Below, one piece after another: positions 1 through 19,413 of a stretch of 22,265 nucleotides of DNA. A program made the translations under genes and the position numbers. The notes beneath the pieces are model-generated. The model was not told where the DNA came from, searched no databases, and saw only the letters and a list, made by a program, of their open reading frames with translations. How positions within the stretch are numbered: the stretch's first letter is position 1; each line of letters begins with the position of its first letter. The stretch is taken from the IMG/VR virus record IMGVR_UViG_3300037517_002742, positions 1-22,265 of that record. One strand, given 5' to 3'. Source of the DNA: a virus.

Positions 1-1
1 T

Positions 2-244
2 GCCAAGGTGGGTATCAAAACAGGTACCAAGAAGAAGACGGTTTCACACAAAGAACTATCTGATGCAGAGAAAAAGGCGAATTTTTTGGCAGCAAAAGCA
101 GCAATACAGTCAAAGTTGGGTGCGGAAAAGCACCGCTCAGCTGCCGTAAGCTCCGCCAACAAAAAGTCAAAGCAAAATGCTGCTGCTAAATCAGCAGCTT
201 ATGACAAGAGGTGGGGACTTTCTGGATTAAAGGCCAAGAAGTAA
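2..244 (+). CDS. 3' end of an unknown phage protein (partial)
   Basis: The frame is already open at the left edge, so this is probably the C-terminal part of a longer gene cut by the window. A GTG at position 8 could start a 78-residue protein, but no ribosome binding site can be assessed. The visible part is very rich in Lys and Ala, with almost no hydrophobic residues, and ends GLKAKK; it would be a basic, probably helical or disordered tail. It stops six bases before the gp10-like gene. A head-completion or connector role is suggested only by position, and no family is recognised. Confidence 0.6.
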   Translation, partial: AKVGIKTGTKKKTVSHKELSDAEKKANFLAAKAAIQSKLGAEKHRSAAVSSANKKSKQNAAAKSAAYDKRWGLSGLKAKK

Positions 245-249
245 CTTGC

Positions 250-648
250 ATGTCGAACTTTGCAGCGGACATCGCTCGGTTTGCTACAAAGGTAGGCATC
301 AGCCTCGATGCTGCCCACAGTAAAATCTGTTTGGATCTATTCCGTTCCCTGGTGATGAAGTCTCCGGTAGATACAGGCAGGTTTCGTGGCAACTGGCAGA
401 TTGGTGTCGGTGATATAAATTTGGATACTTCCGGTGCAGTTGATAAAGCTGGCGGCCGTGTTCTTGCGAATGGTACAATGACATTGCTGGCAGTTAAAGC
501 GGGTGGCATCATTTACCTAACGAACAGCCTGCCCTACGCGATTCGACTTGAGTATGGCAGCTCACAGCAAGCACCACAGGGGATGGTTCGCATTACAATG
601 GTAGAGCACCGCAGCAATCTTACTTCTATCCTTGCTGGGCTCAATTAA
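250..648 (+). CDS. HK97 gp10-like head-tail connector / tail completion protein
   Basis: A protein of 132 residues that resembles the HK97 gp10-like family, small proteins acting at the head-tail interface. Visible signatures are the SPVDTGRFRGNW stretch (about residues 38-49) and the later YAIRLEYGSSQQAPQGMVR segment followed by a C-terminal helix; both are characteristic of this family. A longer reading frame from GTG at 211 would overlap the upstream gene. ATG at 250 is preferred because it begins the conserved part six bases after the upstream stop, although its ribosome binding site is weak. Position just before a tail terminator and tail tube gene fits the usual order. Family assignment is from recall of the motif. 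Confidence 0.8.
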   Translation: MSNFAADIARFATKVGISLDAAHSKICLDLFRSLVMKSPVDTGRFRGNWQIGVGDINLDTSGAVDKAGGRVLANGTMTLLAVKAGGIIYLTNSLPYAIRLEYGSSQQAPQGMVRITMVEHRSNLTSILAGLN

Positions 649-10927: not shown

Positions 10928-11116
10928 TCACCCTTTGAGTGTGCACTTTCCTGCAAGGGCTTTTCTGGCCAACTTGTCTCCTGGGTACCCAGAAGGTAAG
11001 TCGTCCTTATTACGTGAGTTTCTTCGCGACGGAGTGCCTCCCTGGTACCCTGTTCTAGGCAAGGCCGTTTGAAGCCAAGCAAGCAGCATACCAACCGCCG
11101 TATTATTGATTTTCAT
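10928..11116 (-). CDS. Small unknown protein, last gene of leftward operon
   Basis: A protein of 62 residues. It starts at ATG 11116 behind GAAGGAG at ideal distance, overlapping the last 14 bases of queE in another frame. It is basic, with a short hydrophobic start (AVGMLLAWLQ) and then a polar part containing YQGGTPSRRNSRNKDDLP and YPGDKLARKAL. The excellent ribosome binding site and coupling to queE support a real gene. Another leftward reading frame, 10870-11094, is its shadow. No function is recognised. Confidence 0.7.
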   Translation of the reverse strand: MKINNTAVGMLLAWLQTALPRTGYQGGTPSRRNSRNKDDLPSGYPGDKLARKALAGKCTLKG

Positions 11117-12650
11117 TGTGGATCTCCTTCAGGATTGACGTGCTGATGAGTTCTTCCTCTCGGAAGTCGTCTGGGAACAGATATTTGTGCAGTTGCAAGT
11201 TCAGTCCGATATTCATATCTCGGCAGAGTTCGTCTCCCATCATTAAGTTGAAAAGGTCCACCGCCTTCATGTTTGTGTGGTCCGGTGAGAAGAATATCCG
11301 CGCGTAACACCCCGCATCGATGAGCTTCTTAGTTTCCGTCAGTGCCCACTCGAACTCCGCGGGACTAGATACCACTACTTTGATACAGTGCTGCTTTGAC
11401 CCCAGCTTCGCCATTTCACTTAGCAGAGGTTGCTGGTGCCCGGGTACAGTCGTCGGAGACTTCAAGTCGACTACCAACGACAAGTACGGAACAGCAGCGT
11501 AGTGCATAAATGGATACATCCCAGAAGTTTCAATACTTACCAAGTAGTCCAGAGCAAGGAGCTGCCGAAGGAGATCAATAAACTCGTCTCCGTCCTGCTC
11601 GAGTGGTTCTCCACCCGTGATTGTAACTTTGCGAATACCACCGCCGATATCACGCACACGACTGACGATGTCGCTGGGAGTGAATTGCTGTCCTTGGTGA
11701 ATGGGCCAGGAGTACTTGGTGTCACAGTTATGCACCCACATAGTGTTCAATAGATATGTATTGAACGGTGAGCATGATACATTGAAAACGTCTAGGCTGT
11801 CTATCATCCCGTCTGCTTTCCAATTCGCGCCGGAACCTCGATTTACTTTTTTAACTGAGAGGACTTCGGCTCCATTATGATTTAATTCAGCAAAACTCCT
11901 TTTTCCGTCAGATCGCTTTCCATTCCAGAAATTAGCACCACGCTGGTGAAGATGTGAGTGGCATGTGTGGCAAAGAGAAGAAAGATTGCTCTCAGCATCG
12001 TTCTCACGATCACCATCTTTGTGGTGCACCTCCAACATCCGCACTTTACTGCATAACTCGCATCTTCGCTCTTCTTTCAAATTTCGCGCTTTTAGTTTGT
12101 CGTAATTAACGCTGTGGAAGATAGTGTCTTTATAATTCGGGTTTCGACTTCCCTGTTTGTAGTATGCTATGAGTTCGTTGGGGTGTACGTGGTAAATATC
12201 ATCACCCACTCTTAAATCACCTGCCTCGACTTGCCCTCTGGTTGTAAATATAGGATGTTCTGGAGTCACAAAGAATACAGTTGAATCTAACTTTGTATGA
12301 TTTTTTACCTTCACTTCTACCCACTCAGTTACACTGCGTTTCTGCGTCGCTGTTACTGTGGTAGGTACTATCGCATGATTTTCATCTAGAGTCAGAAGAA
12401 TGTCTCCTGCAACCACTTGACTAAGTTTTTTTCTACCTCCAGATGCTAAATGCACTTCCGGGTGCCTTTTCCCTTCCTTTTGTCCGAAACAATAGGAGCA
12501 GCCAACACGGCATCCCGTCAGTCGTATGAACACTGACATACTACCCTGCCCGAACCCATTGCATTCACCGTCCACTGTTGCGAAGATGGAAAGCACATTC
12601 AAGTGTCCCGTAGTGTTTGCACGTGCTTTCAAATAGGCTTCTGACGCCAT
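11103..12650 (-). CDS. queE: QueE-like 7-carboxy-7-deazaguanine synthase interrupted by an intein
   Basis: The full frame is 515 residues, but residues 54-308 are an intein, leaving a 260-residue QueE. QueE is a radical-SAM enzyme that converts carboxytetrahydropterin to 7-carboxy-7-deazaguanine, a precursor of queuosine and of 7-deazaguanine DNA modifications in phages. The spliced protein would restore RLTGC-RVGC-SYC-DTKYSW: Cys47, Cys51 and Cys309 are the CX3CX2C iron-sulfur cluster ligands. Later TITGGEPLEQ, IETSGMYPF and VVDLKSPTTVPG are QueE motifs. Without splicing the cluster motif would be broken, so activity depends on it. The ribosome binding site is AGGAT, five bases before ATG 12650. 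Partner enzymes lie outside this window if they exist. Confidence 0.9.
   Translation of the reverse strand: MASEAYLKARANTTGHLNVLSIFATVDGECNGFGQGSMSVFIRLTGCRVGCSYCFGQKEGKRHPEVHLASGGRKKLSQVVAGDILLTLDENHAIVPTTVTATQKRSVTEWVEVKVKNHTKLDSTVFFVTPEHPIFTTRGQVEAGDLRVGDDIYHVHPNELIAYYKQGSRNPNYKDTIFHSVNYDKLKARNLKEERRCELCSKVRMLEVHHKDGDRENDAESNLSSLCHTCHSHLHQRGANFWNGKRSDGKRSFAELNHNGAEVLSVKKVNRGSGANWKADGMIDSLDVFNVSCSPFNTYLLNTMWVHNCDTKYSWPIHQGQQFTPSDIVSRVRDIGGGIRKVTITGGEPLEQDGDEFIDLLRQLLALDYLVSIETSGMYPFMHYAAVPYLSLVVDLKSPTTVPGHQQPLLSEMAKLGSKQHCIKVVVSSPAEFEWALTETKKLIDAGCYARIFFSPDHTNMKAVDLFNLMMGDELCRDMNIGLNLQLHKYLFPDDFREEELISTSILKEIHNENQ
11727..12491 (-). mobile_element. Intein with HNH homing endonuclease in queE
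   Basis: Encodes residues 54-308 (255 residues) of the queE frame. It begins with Cys54 (Cys1, directly after CSY) and ends with VHN, followed by Cys309 as the +1 nucleophile, the standard splice junctions. The first part has hedgehog/intein features (VHLASGGRKKLSQVVAGDILL; block B TPEHPIFTTRGQVEAGDL). The middle has a zinc-type HNH motif: CELC, then LEVHHKDGDREN and SLCHTCHSHLH (about residues 197-235). The last part is block F/G, VFNVSC to WVHN. This is one unbroken frame, so the element appears active. Confidence 0.9.
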
Positions 12651-12684
12651 TTTCTATCCTTTACATAGTAGGTTGAAAAAAGGT

Positions 12685-12729
12685 ATAGTAATCAATAGGT
12701 TACACTTTACCTAACCTATTGATTACTAT
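12685..12729. promoter_or_regulatory. Dyad site 2, 18-bp perfect arms, before queE
   Basis: ATAGTAATCAATAGGTTA at 12685-12702 is the exact reverse complement of the sequence at 12712-12729, with a 9-base spacer (CACTTTACC). It shares the core half-site AATCAATAGGTTA and the spacer length with sites at 3109 and 20230. It lies in the 130-base gap between the exonuclease stop and the queE start, about 34 bases before the queE ATG. An operator for a dimeric or tetrameric regulator is the simplest reading. Confidence 0.8.
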
Positions 12730-12780: not shown

Positions 12781-13650
12781 CTATCTTCTGCGTAATGGCC
12801 TATGCGAGATTTGCGCTAATGCTTCCACCATTACTTCAGTGATGCGAATCTCCCATCGAGCAACTGCTTGGTAGAGAGTTCTCGGATTGAACTCCCACGT
12901 TACCGATGACATCAAAAAAGGTGGGAGTTCTAACCCTTCAAAAGGAAGCAAGTTCATCTTTTGATTCTCCGCAAACACTTTACGTTCTTCTGGTGACATC
13001 CAGCTGATGTTGTCGTAGGTTGGTCCCAGCAGCTTGATTGCAGTTTTAATGCCAATCCCCTTCCTTACACCAACAACATGATTATGCGACCCTGCGACGG
13101 AGATGATGTTCACCCATGCATGCGGAGGTACACCATGCTCTTTGTCCAGATCTACTTCACCGTAGAAGGGTGGGTGCTTTCCGCCCTTATGCATCGACAC
13201 TTTGTCACCCAATAATTGGTACATGTCACTGTCTCCTGACATGATGATTGCAACTCCCAGATCACGAACAGAGACAGAATTACACACATGACCAATTATG
13301 TCATCAGCCTCTGCTCCCGATACTTTTAAGTAAGGCAATCCCACGCCGTCGATGAGTTCATGCAGTTGTCGTTTCGTAGCGTCCACCCGTGCGCGTAACC
13401 CCTCATCAATCGTTCTGTCTGCTTTGAACGTCTCCGCGATCCCTTCTGCTTTCAAGTAGGGAGGCGCGTCGAATGCGATGAGAAGATGAGTTGCTCCCGT
13501 ACGCAAAATTGCAGTGCATACCTGACCGATGAACCCGAATACTCCACCAGTGAACTCACCTTCAGAATTGGTGAGCCCACTGTGGGTATGGCACGCCCGG
13601 TAGATGATTGTAGATGCGTCTACAATCAAAAGACGTGTTTCAGTTTTCAT
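12781..13650 (-). CDS. 5'-3' exonuclease / flap endonuclease (PIN-FEN family)
   Basis: A protein of 289 residues like the N-terminal nuclease domain of DNA polymerase I and T5/T7-type exonucleases, which remove RNA primers or flaps. Visible motifs are LLIVDAS (Asp11), LIAFDAPP (Asp61), GAEADDIIG (114-117), IIMSGDSDMYQLL (Asp140, Asp142), and the helix-hairpin-helix-like GVRKGIGIKTAIKLL (194-208). Before that loop the usual GDxSDN acidic pair seems changed: the stretch reads SVAGSHNHVVGV, so the third carboxylate pair is missing. Its ATG overlaps the stop of the DUF932 gene (ATGA), indicating co-translation. No polymerase gene is present in this window. Confidence 0.88.
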   Translation of the reverse strand: MKTETRLLIVDASTIIYRACHTHSGLTNSEGEFTGGVFGFIGQVCTAILRTGATHLLIAFDAPPYLKAEGIAETFKADRTIDEGLRARVDATKRQLHELIDGVGLPYLKVSGAEADDIIGHVCNSVSVRDLGVAIIMSGDSDMYQLLGDKVSMHKGGKHPPFYGEVDLDKEHGVPPHAWVNIISVAGSHNHVVGVRKGIGIKTAIKLLGPTYDNISWMSPEERKVFAENQKMNLLPFEGLELPPFLMSSVTWEFNPRTLYQAVARWEIRITEVMVEALAQISHRPLRRR

Positions 13651-17675: not shown

Positions 17676-17681
17676 TTCCAT

Positions 17682-17743
17682 CTCCTAAATAAATATGAGC
17701 GGAGTTGCTCCCGGGTTGGCCTGTTGCCAAGCCAACCGAAGAG
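17682..17743 (-). promoter_or_regulatory. Repeat RNA element, copy A
   Basis: On the minus strand: a hairpin (stem GGTTGGC/GCCAACC, 17714-17737), three bases, then GAGCAACTCCGCTC (17697-17710), an AT-rich stretch, and TTAGGAG ending at 17682. GAGC and GCTC can pair, exposing CTCC in the loop; that CTCC is complementary to the GGAG of the ribosome binding site. Copies at 18.70 and 19.34 kb share the layout. Confidence 0.8.
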
Positions 17744-18698: not shown

Positions 18699-18752
18699 CC
18701 TCCTAAATGTATATGAGCGGAGTTGCTCTCGAAGCCCGCTGTCACCGGGCTT
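18699..18752 (-). promoter_or_regulatory. Repeat RNA element, copy B
   Basis: Hairpin AAGCCCG/CGGGCTT (18732-18752, loop GTGACAG), then three bases, the conserved GAGCAACTCCGCTC (18715-18728), an AT-rich stretch and TTAGGAGG at the ribosome binding site of the 128-residue protein. The hairpin sequence differs from copies A and C but the fold and spacing persist. Confidence 0.75.
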
Positions 18753-18758
18753 GAAGTG

Positions 18759-19070
18759 TTACTCCTGCGCAGTCTTCTCAACGAACGAGACTGCCTTAAT
18801 CACCGGCTGGAGAATACGGCGCTTCACGCTCTCCATCGTAATGCTAGTTGACGCATTGTGTCCGGTCCGGAGAGCTCCTGCTTTTCCCAAGTACCAAAAC
18901 ACCTGACCATACGTTGTCAGTTTGTTGTAGGTCTCCGATGTCCAGGCTGTACCGTCTGCATTACGGGTTCTCGTGAATACTCGGAACTTGGAGGACTTCC
19001 CTTTGATTTCCTTCTCACCTATTAAATCGAAGTGGACTGCCAGCTGCTGCTGAATAGTAAGTTTTGACAT
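18759..19070 (-). CDS. Small unknown protein
   Basis: A protein of 103 residues starting at ATG 19070; the TTAGGAG ribosome binding site lies inside the last codons of the upstream gene, so the two are translationally coupled. It contains LTIQQQLAVHFDLIGEKEIKG, KFRVFTRTRNADGTAW and WYLGKAGALRTGHNAS. The basic mid-part and Trp/Arg pattern may suggest nucleic-acid binding, but no family is recognised. Confidence 0.65.
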   Translation of the reverse strand: MSKLTIQQQLAVHFDLIGEKEIKGKSSKFRVFTRTRNADGTAWTSETYNKLTTYGQVFWYLGKAGALRTGHNASTSITMESVKRRILQPVIKAVSFVEKTAQE

Positions 19071-19335: not shown

Positions 19336-19341
19336 CATGCT

Positions 19342-19402
19342 CTCCTAAATGAATATGAGCGGAGTTGCTCCCGGGTGGGTCTGTTTCCAAACCCACCGAA
19401 GA
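19342..19402 (-). promoter_or_regulatory. Repeat RNA element, copy C
   Basis: Hairpin GGTGGGT/ACCCACC (19374-19397) with loop TTGGAAACAG, then three bases, the conserved GAGCAACTCCGCTC (19357-19370), an AT-rich stretch and TTAGGAG. Relative to copy A two stem positions are changed on both sides (T-A to G-C, C-G to T-A), so pairing is preserved. Confidence 0.8.
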
Positions 19403-19413
19403 GGATTCCGGTG

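Follow-up and report, generated by a model that had tools for sequence, protein, structure and literature searches.

A probable HNH-carrying homing intein at an iron-sulphur ligand of a phage QueE

The insert that interrupts queE, the gene of a radical-SAM enzyme of DNA/RNA modification, in the viral DNA analysed here (a virus record of 22,265 bases, the whole of which is termed the window) is very probably a bifunctional, selfish homing intein. As read from the DNA, it possesses the full set of splicing blocks, an HNH endonuclease in frame between the halves of the splicing domain, and an insertion site that is recurrently occupied in other queE genes. In favour of this reading are the open frame, the blocks, the Hint and HNH profile matches, the fold, the existence of QueEs with an empty site, eleven further inteins at the same site, mini-intein (L057) and remnant (L040) forms, and a compositional contrast with the exteins; against it stand a Pfam Intein_splicing score below cutoff, an asparagine in block F, and endonuclease models of low confidence. 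As far as the literature was checked, the element is of a known, ordinary kind, its novelty lying in the host protein and the site of insertion.

Organisation of the interrupted gene

The precursor and its parts lie on the minus strand as follows:

11103..12650, minus strand: queE precursor ORF, 515 aa, ATG start
12492..12650, minus strand: N-extein, 53 aa, ending ...GCRVGCSY, with the first two cluster cysteines, the second being Cys-3 relative to the intein
11727..12491, minus strand: intein, 255 aa from Cys1 to the terminal Asn, supported by open frame, profiles and model fold match
11103..11726, minus strand: C-extein, 207 aa plus stop, starting CDTKYSW (third cluster cysteine = +1 Cys) and containing TITGGEP
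12489..12491, minus strand: Cys1 codon TGT, predicted first-step nucleophile, invariant in alignment A2
12252..12266, minus strand: block B TPEHP (TxxH), intein residues 76-80, with T76 and H79 invariant in A2
11946..12062, minus strand: HNH endonuclease core CELC...VHHKDGDRENDAESN...LCHTCHSHLH, matching PHROGs HNH families (E 1e-7) and, below threshold, Pfam PF01844 (E 0.006)
11727..11792, minus strand: blocks F and G, DVFNVSCSPFNTYLLNTMWVHN, with F:4 an Asn rather than Asp, and N237, H254 and N255 invariant in A2
11724..11726, minus strand: +1 Cys codon TGT, the third [4Fe-4S] cysteine by sequence and QueE alignment

Profile matches are to QueE at the two ends of the ORF (TIGR04349, E 3.5e-32; phrog_2076 'QueE-like radical SAM domain', E 2.2e-24) and to Hint and HNH domains in between. 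The precursor scores lie below the strict equivalog cutoffs of NCBIfam, and the substrate is taken from the best match and from the CX3CX2C-DT motif, which appears once the insert is removed in silico. This removal leaves a QueE of 260 aa that aligns without gaps to uninterrupted phage QueEs and matches QueEs in 136 phage records, a single place covering at least 80% in 60 of them; alignment of the joined extein to QueE families was the check that the sequence-only reading had proposed, and its length of 260 aa is borne out. The nearest viral relative (L002), 41% identical to the joined extein, reads ...GCKYCDTKYSW and is free of any insert.

Alignment to B. subtilis QueE locates the insertion precisely: query residue 55 corresponds to residue 62 (so that 54 corresponds to 61), and the alignment resumes with query residue 309 at residue 61. 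Intein Cys1 and the +1 Cys therefore both fall on the third cluster cysteine and, as the first reading had also noted, both are encoded by TGT, with the insertion lying exactly before that cysteine. Because the third cluster cysteine is also the +1 residue, imprecise loss of the intein would destroy QueE, and the element is therefore expected to be kept in place.

The insert consists of 255 codons without a stop, in frame with QueE on both sides; random codons of equal base composition would leave such a stretch free of stops with a chance of about 4e-8, and the other five frames contain 9-21 stops. Its GC content is 0.427 versus 0.50-0.51 in the exteins, and at third positions 0.384 versus 0.53-0.60. 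As expected of a class 1 intein, it is inserted in frame into a conserved protein whose homologues lack it, with a nucleophile at position 1 (Cys1), a Cys at +1, the TxxH of block B (TPEH, 76-79) and a C-terminal His-Asn (H254, N255, in the VHN that ends at 255). An aspartate in block F is commonly conserved in inteins and assists splicing; it is mentioned in a review (PMC10663303) and is here treated as not strictly defining for a class 1 intein. Its place is taken by Asn237 in the window intein, and all eight QueE inteins of alignment A2 have Asn there. The endonuclease carries the catalytic His, Asn and His together with zinc-type CxxC pairs (CELC at intein residues 144-147, VHH at 155-157 and CHTCHSHLH at 174-182), the Pfam HNH match being subthreshold only. 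Pfam PT-HINT passes its cutoff on the insert (E 7e-7) and Intein_splicing falls far under (E 0.002, 18.5 of 35.8 bits). These features uphold the sequence-only reading, which had described a complete HNH-type intein at exactly 11727-12491, with Cys1, TPEHP, an HNH core with two CxxC pairs, a terminal HN and a +1 Cys.

In AlphaFold models, with a mean pLDDT of 67.8 for the precursor and 69.3 for the intein alone, the splicing domain is predicted with fair confidence and the endonuclease part poorly, with low confidence. The precursor model matches inteins and B. subtilis QueE structures. The Hint fold is indicated by the profile matches together with the match of the intein model to the Mtu RecA intein (Z 17.6, rmsd 2.0, 134 aligned, residues 1..255 on 1..440). 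Among PDB entries, a profile of eight QueE inteins finds the Mtu RecA, Spl DnaX, NrdJ-1 and gp41-1 inteins; the top Foldseek match is the bacterial intein-like (BIL) domain 2lwy of C. thermocellum.

Judging from these residues, Cys1 would attack its upstream peptide bond after translation, in the manner of class 1 splicing, the acyl group would move to the +1 Cys, and Asn255 would cyclise, releasing the 255-aa intein and leaving a 260-aa QueE with its CX3CX2C cluster motif intact. The HNH domain would cut intein-free queE alleles near TGCTCCTAT^TGTGACACC, and repair would copy the intein into the cut allele. A near-identical intein-free allele of the window phage was not found, and homing is therefore something that we infer.

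QueE inteins at the identical site

Near-sequence searching of viral contigs with the window intein returned a single HNH fragment only, and junction patterns were therefore used: HN^CDT followed by QueE-type residues was scanned in viral contigs and 84,980 species genomes, every match being read in frame; only those with CX3CX2C ahead of the junction and GGxP behind it were kept, the others being taken as chance or as other proteins. Eleven further queE genes carry an intein at C-X3-C-X2-^C-D-T (nine viral contigs, one Streptomyces genome and one Thermoplasmatota MAG). Ten are readable across the insert; in all eleven the intein precedes the third cluster cysteine, L005 being judged from its C-terminal side. 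The resulting twelve genes are a lower bound, since a QueE intein with different residues at its junction would escape such scans. The eleven are:

L034: HNH, 270 aa
L010: HNH, 273 aa
L006 (13137-14153): PD-(D/E)XK/Vsr-like by motif, 339 aa
L037 (207-1214): PD-(D/E)XK/Vsr-like by motif, 336 aa
L008 (3319-4302): LAGLIDADG, 328 aa
L053: LAGLIDADG, 319 aa
L005: C-terminal part only, resembling L008 and L026
L057, IMG/VR contig (10861-11349): no endonuclease, 163 aa
L040 (1965-2570): 39-residue endonuclease remnant, 202 aa
L026, Streptomyces sp. TRM68367 (2293-3276): LAGLIDADG, 328 aa
L015, Thermoplasmatota MAG: mini-intein, 136 aa

Neither a profile search of A1 nor a search with L034 gave further QueE-intein loci. 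QueE inteins are rare: in samples of 199 Streptomyces-genus genomes and 194 Thermoplasmatota, a full match occurred only in the starting genomes, the remaining readable matches being other proteins such as RtcB. QueC, QueD and/or FolE are present in most of the other viral records with a QueE intein.

The sequence-only reading had doubted whether any QueE intein was described. No paper joining 'QueE' or '7-carboxy-7-deazaguanine synthase' with 'intein' was found in a partial check of the literature, and among papers combining 'intein' with 'queuosine' or 'radical SAM' none describes one; on that side the doubt holds, but the window is not a lone case, as the same site is occupied in eleven other queE genes. 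One viral gene labelled 'radical SAM protein-like protein' (Virus Rctr197k, KX853510.1; L060, H49) was set aside, as the encoded protein reads as helicase-like and not as a QueE, its intein being of LAGLIDADG type; the label is likely a misannotation.

The full-length intein nearest in plan to that of the window is L034 (29% over 227 aa, E 2e-14), with similar splicing and HNH parts; the zinc cysteines of the window intein are missing in L034. In the splicing-domain tree the window intein groups with L057 and L040 (support 93/89), and other branches are not separated. Placing the eight non-LAGLIDADG QueE inteins in a single clade is not rejected (p-AU 0.35) but has no support either, so that this tree does not decide between one and several origins for them. 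The L057 mini-intein is 35% identical to the window intein over 97 residues. It shares with its longer twin L040 an N-extein identical over 74 aa and a near-identical intein, L040 retaining 39 residues (NHNPMHDHGVAA...) absent from L057; an NPM stretch like that of L040 is found in the nuclease region of L037 and L006. We read L040 and L057 as apparent stages in a stepwise loss of the endonuclease.

The nuclease label of L006 and L037 derives solely from the motif PDF...E[IV][YW], no Pfam or PHROG nuclease profile having matched; PD-(D/E)XK/Vsr-like enzymes are an uncommon endonuclease type for inteins. In the LAGLIDADG inteins L026 and L008, block B lacks the usual TxxH (SADT/AADT), and their splicing mechanism may differ.

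Comparison with described inteins

Annotated HNH-carrying phage inteins, such as the portal protein intein of Mycobacterium phage Gizmo, likewise interrupt a phage protein with a Hint domain into which a nuclease is inserted; their host protein and site differ from those of the window, and the phage inteins that match the window or L010 intein do so mostly in the N-terminal splicing part (37-38% over ~95 residues). The best structural match to the modelled splicing domain, the Mtu RecA intein (PDB 3ifj, 2in8), lies in a different host protein, is 14-16% identical, and was solved as a splicing domain without endonuclease. Closest in the tree are the splicing domains of L057 and L040, which share the insertion site of the window; however, L057 is without an endonuclease and L040 has only the remnant, whereas the window intein has its HNH domain, and neither was found described in the literature.

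A parallel missed by the earlier reading is that with the redox trap of the MoaA intein. In P. abyssi MoaA, a disulfide between Cys-3 and Cys1 blocks splicing of the intein under oxidation (PMC3922620, PMC10663303). Like that of the window, this intein interrupts a radical-SAM enzyme (GTP 3',8-cyclase) and, going by its published description, has Cys-3 and Cys1, as would fit an insertion ahead of the third cluster cysteine; the one resides in an archaeal MoaA, the other in a phage QueE.

Alternative readings

Extending rather than replacing the homing-intein reading, the intein might also act as a redox switch, a tentative suggestion that we consider possible but doubtful: as in P. abyssi MoaA, a Cys-3/Cys1 disulfide would block splicing when oxidised, and the oxygen-sensitive QueE would mature only in a reducing cell. 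The disulfide is documented for the intein of MoaA, an enzyme from the same superfamily as QueE (PMC10663303, PMC3922620), and the fold matches include 3nzm, a solved DnaE intein with a redox trap. With cysteines at position 1 and at -3 of the N-extein, the window intein has the redox-trap chemistry available to it; likewise, position -3 is a cysteine in every QueE intein whose N-junction is readable (CSY^C, CPG^C, CSW^C, CIW^C, CHW^C, CPW^C, CVY^C, CEW^C, CNF^C). However, the cluster motif forces Cys-3, so that its conservation neither shows regulation by itself nor counts independently as evidence that a switch was selected for, and the bacterial cytoplasm is usually reducing.

That the intein is dead, with splicing or homing lost in a decaying queE, is unlikely. 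The 22-kb window holds none of the preQ0 pathway genes QueC, QueD and FolE, and stages of endonuclease loss exist at the same site elsewhere (L040, L057); but the window is a fragment, so that absent pathway genes say little, while the splicing and HNH catalytic residues are all present and the 515-codon frame is open.

Less likely still is cleavage in place of splicing, by a BIL or PT-HINT domain. Although PT-HINT is the best Pfam model, 2lwy heads the Foldseek list and F:4 is Asn, true inteins including Mtu RecA match too, and the HNH core and +1 Cys are present. The insert also lies in a conserved enzyme, at one fixed site common to eleven other genes, where cleavage without ligation would destroy QueE. 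A natural insertion domain of the QueE family, for which no supporting evidence was found, is the least likely reading, given the uninterrupted relatives and gap-free joined extein, the intein fold of the model, and the occupation of the same site by different endonuclease families.

The homing-intein reading is thus preferred. The recurrence of the site, the variety of its endonucleases and the likeness to MoaA add to the interest of the case. Common to at least twelve genes with three endonuclease types or none, the QueE site offers a compact natural series for endonuclease gain, swap and loss within inteins. It also lies on an iron-sulphur ligand, with the Cys-3/Cys1 geometry of MoaA, the only radical-SAM intein found described; this shared geometry brings the question of whether inteins sense redox state within reach of a test in phage base modification, where redox-gated splicing is possible by analogy. 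More speculatively, and in our estimation improbably, the third cluster cysteine of radical-SAM enzymes could be a convergent intein niche in which Cys-3 and Cys1 supply a ready-made redox lock, the QueE inteins of phages, Streptomyces and archaea being post-translational redox gates on 7-deazaguanine synthesis, retained for use and not only as parasites.

Genomic setting

The plus strand of the window bears tail genes, and the minus strand an early-type gene set (an exonuclease, a ParB-like protein and small genes) that includes queE. Two elements lie upstream of the queE start:

12657..12662, minus strand: Shine-Dalgarno-like AAAGGA upstream of the queE ATG, read from the sequence
12685..12729, no strand assigned: terminator-like element, an 18-bp inverted repeat without mismatch around a 9-nt loop, with TTTTTT after it on the minus strand

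The terminator-like element falls between the exonuclease gene (12781-13650) and queE, and is context outside the intein. Elsewhere in the window a 63-nt intergenic element occurs three times (17681-17743, 18699-18761 and 19341-19403), each copy directly upstream of a minus-strand start codon. The element holds a Shine-Dalgarno-like AGGAG as well as the hairpin-forming GGGAGCAACTCC, and may serve these genes as a common leader or attenuator.
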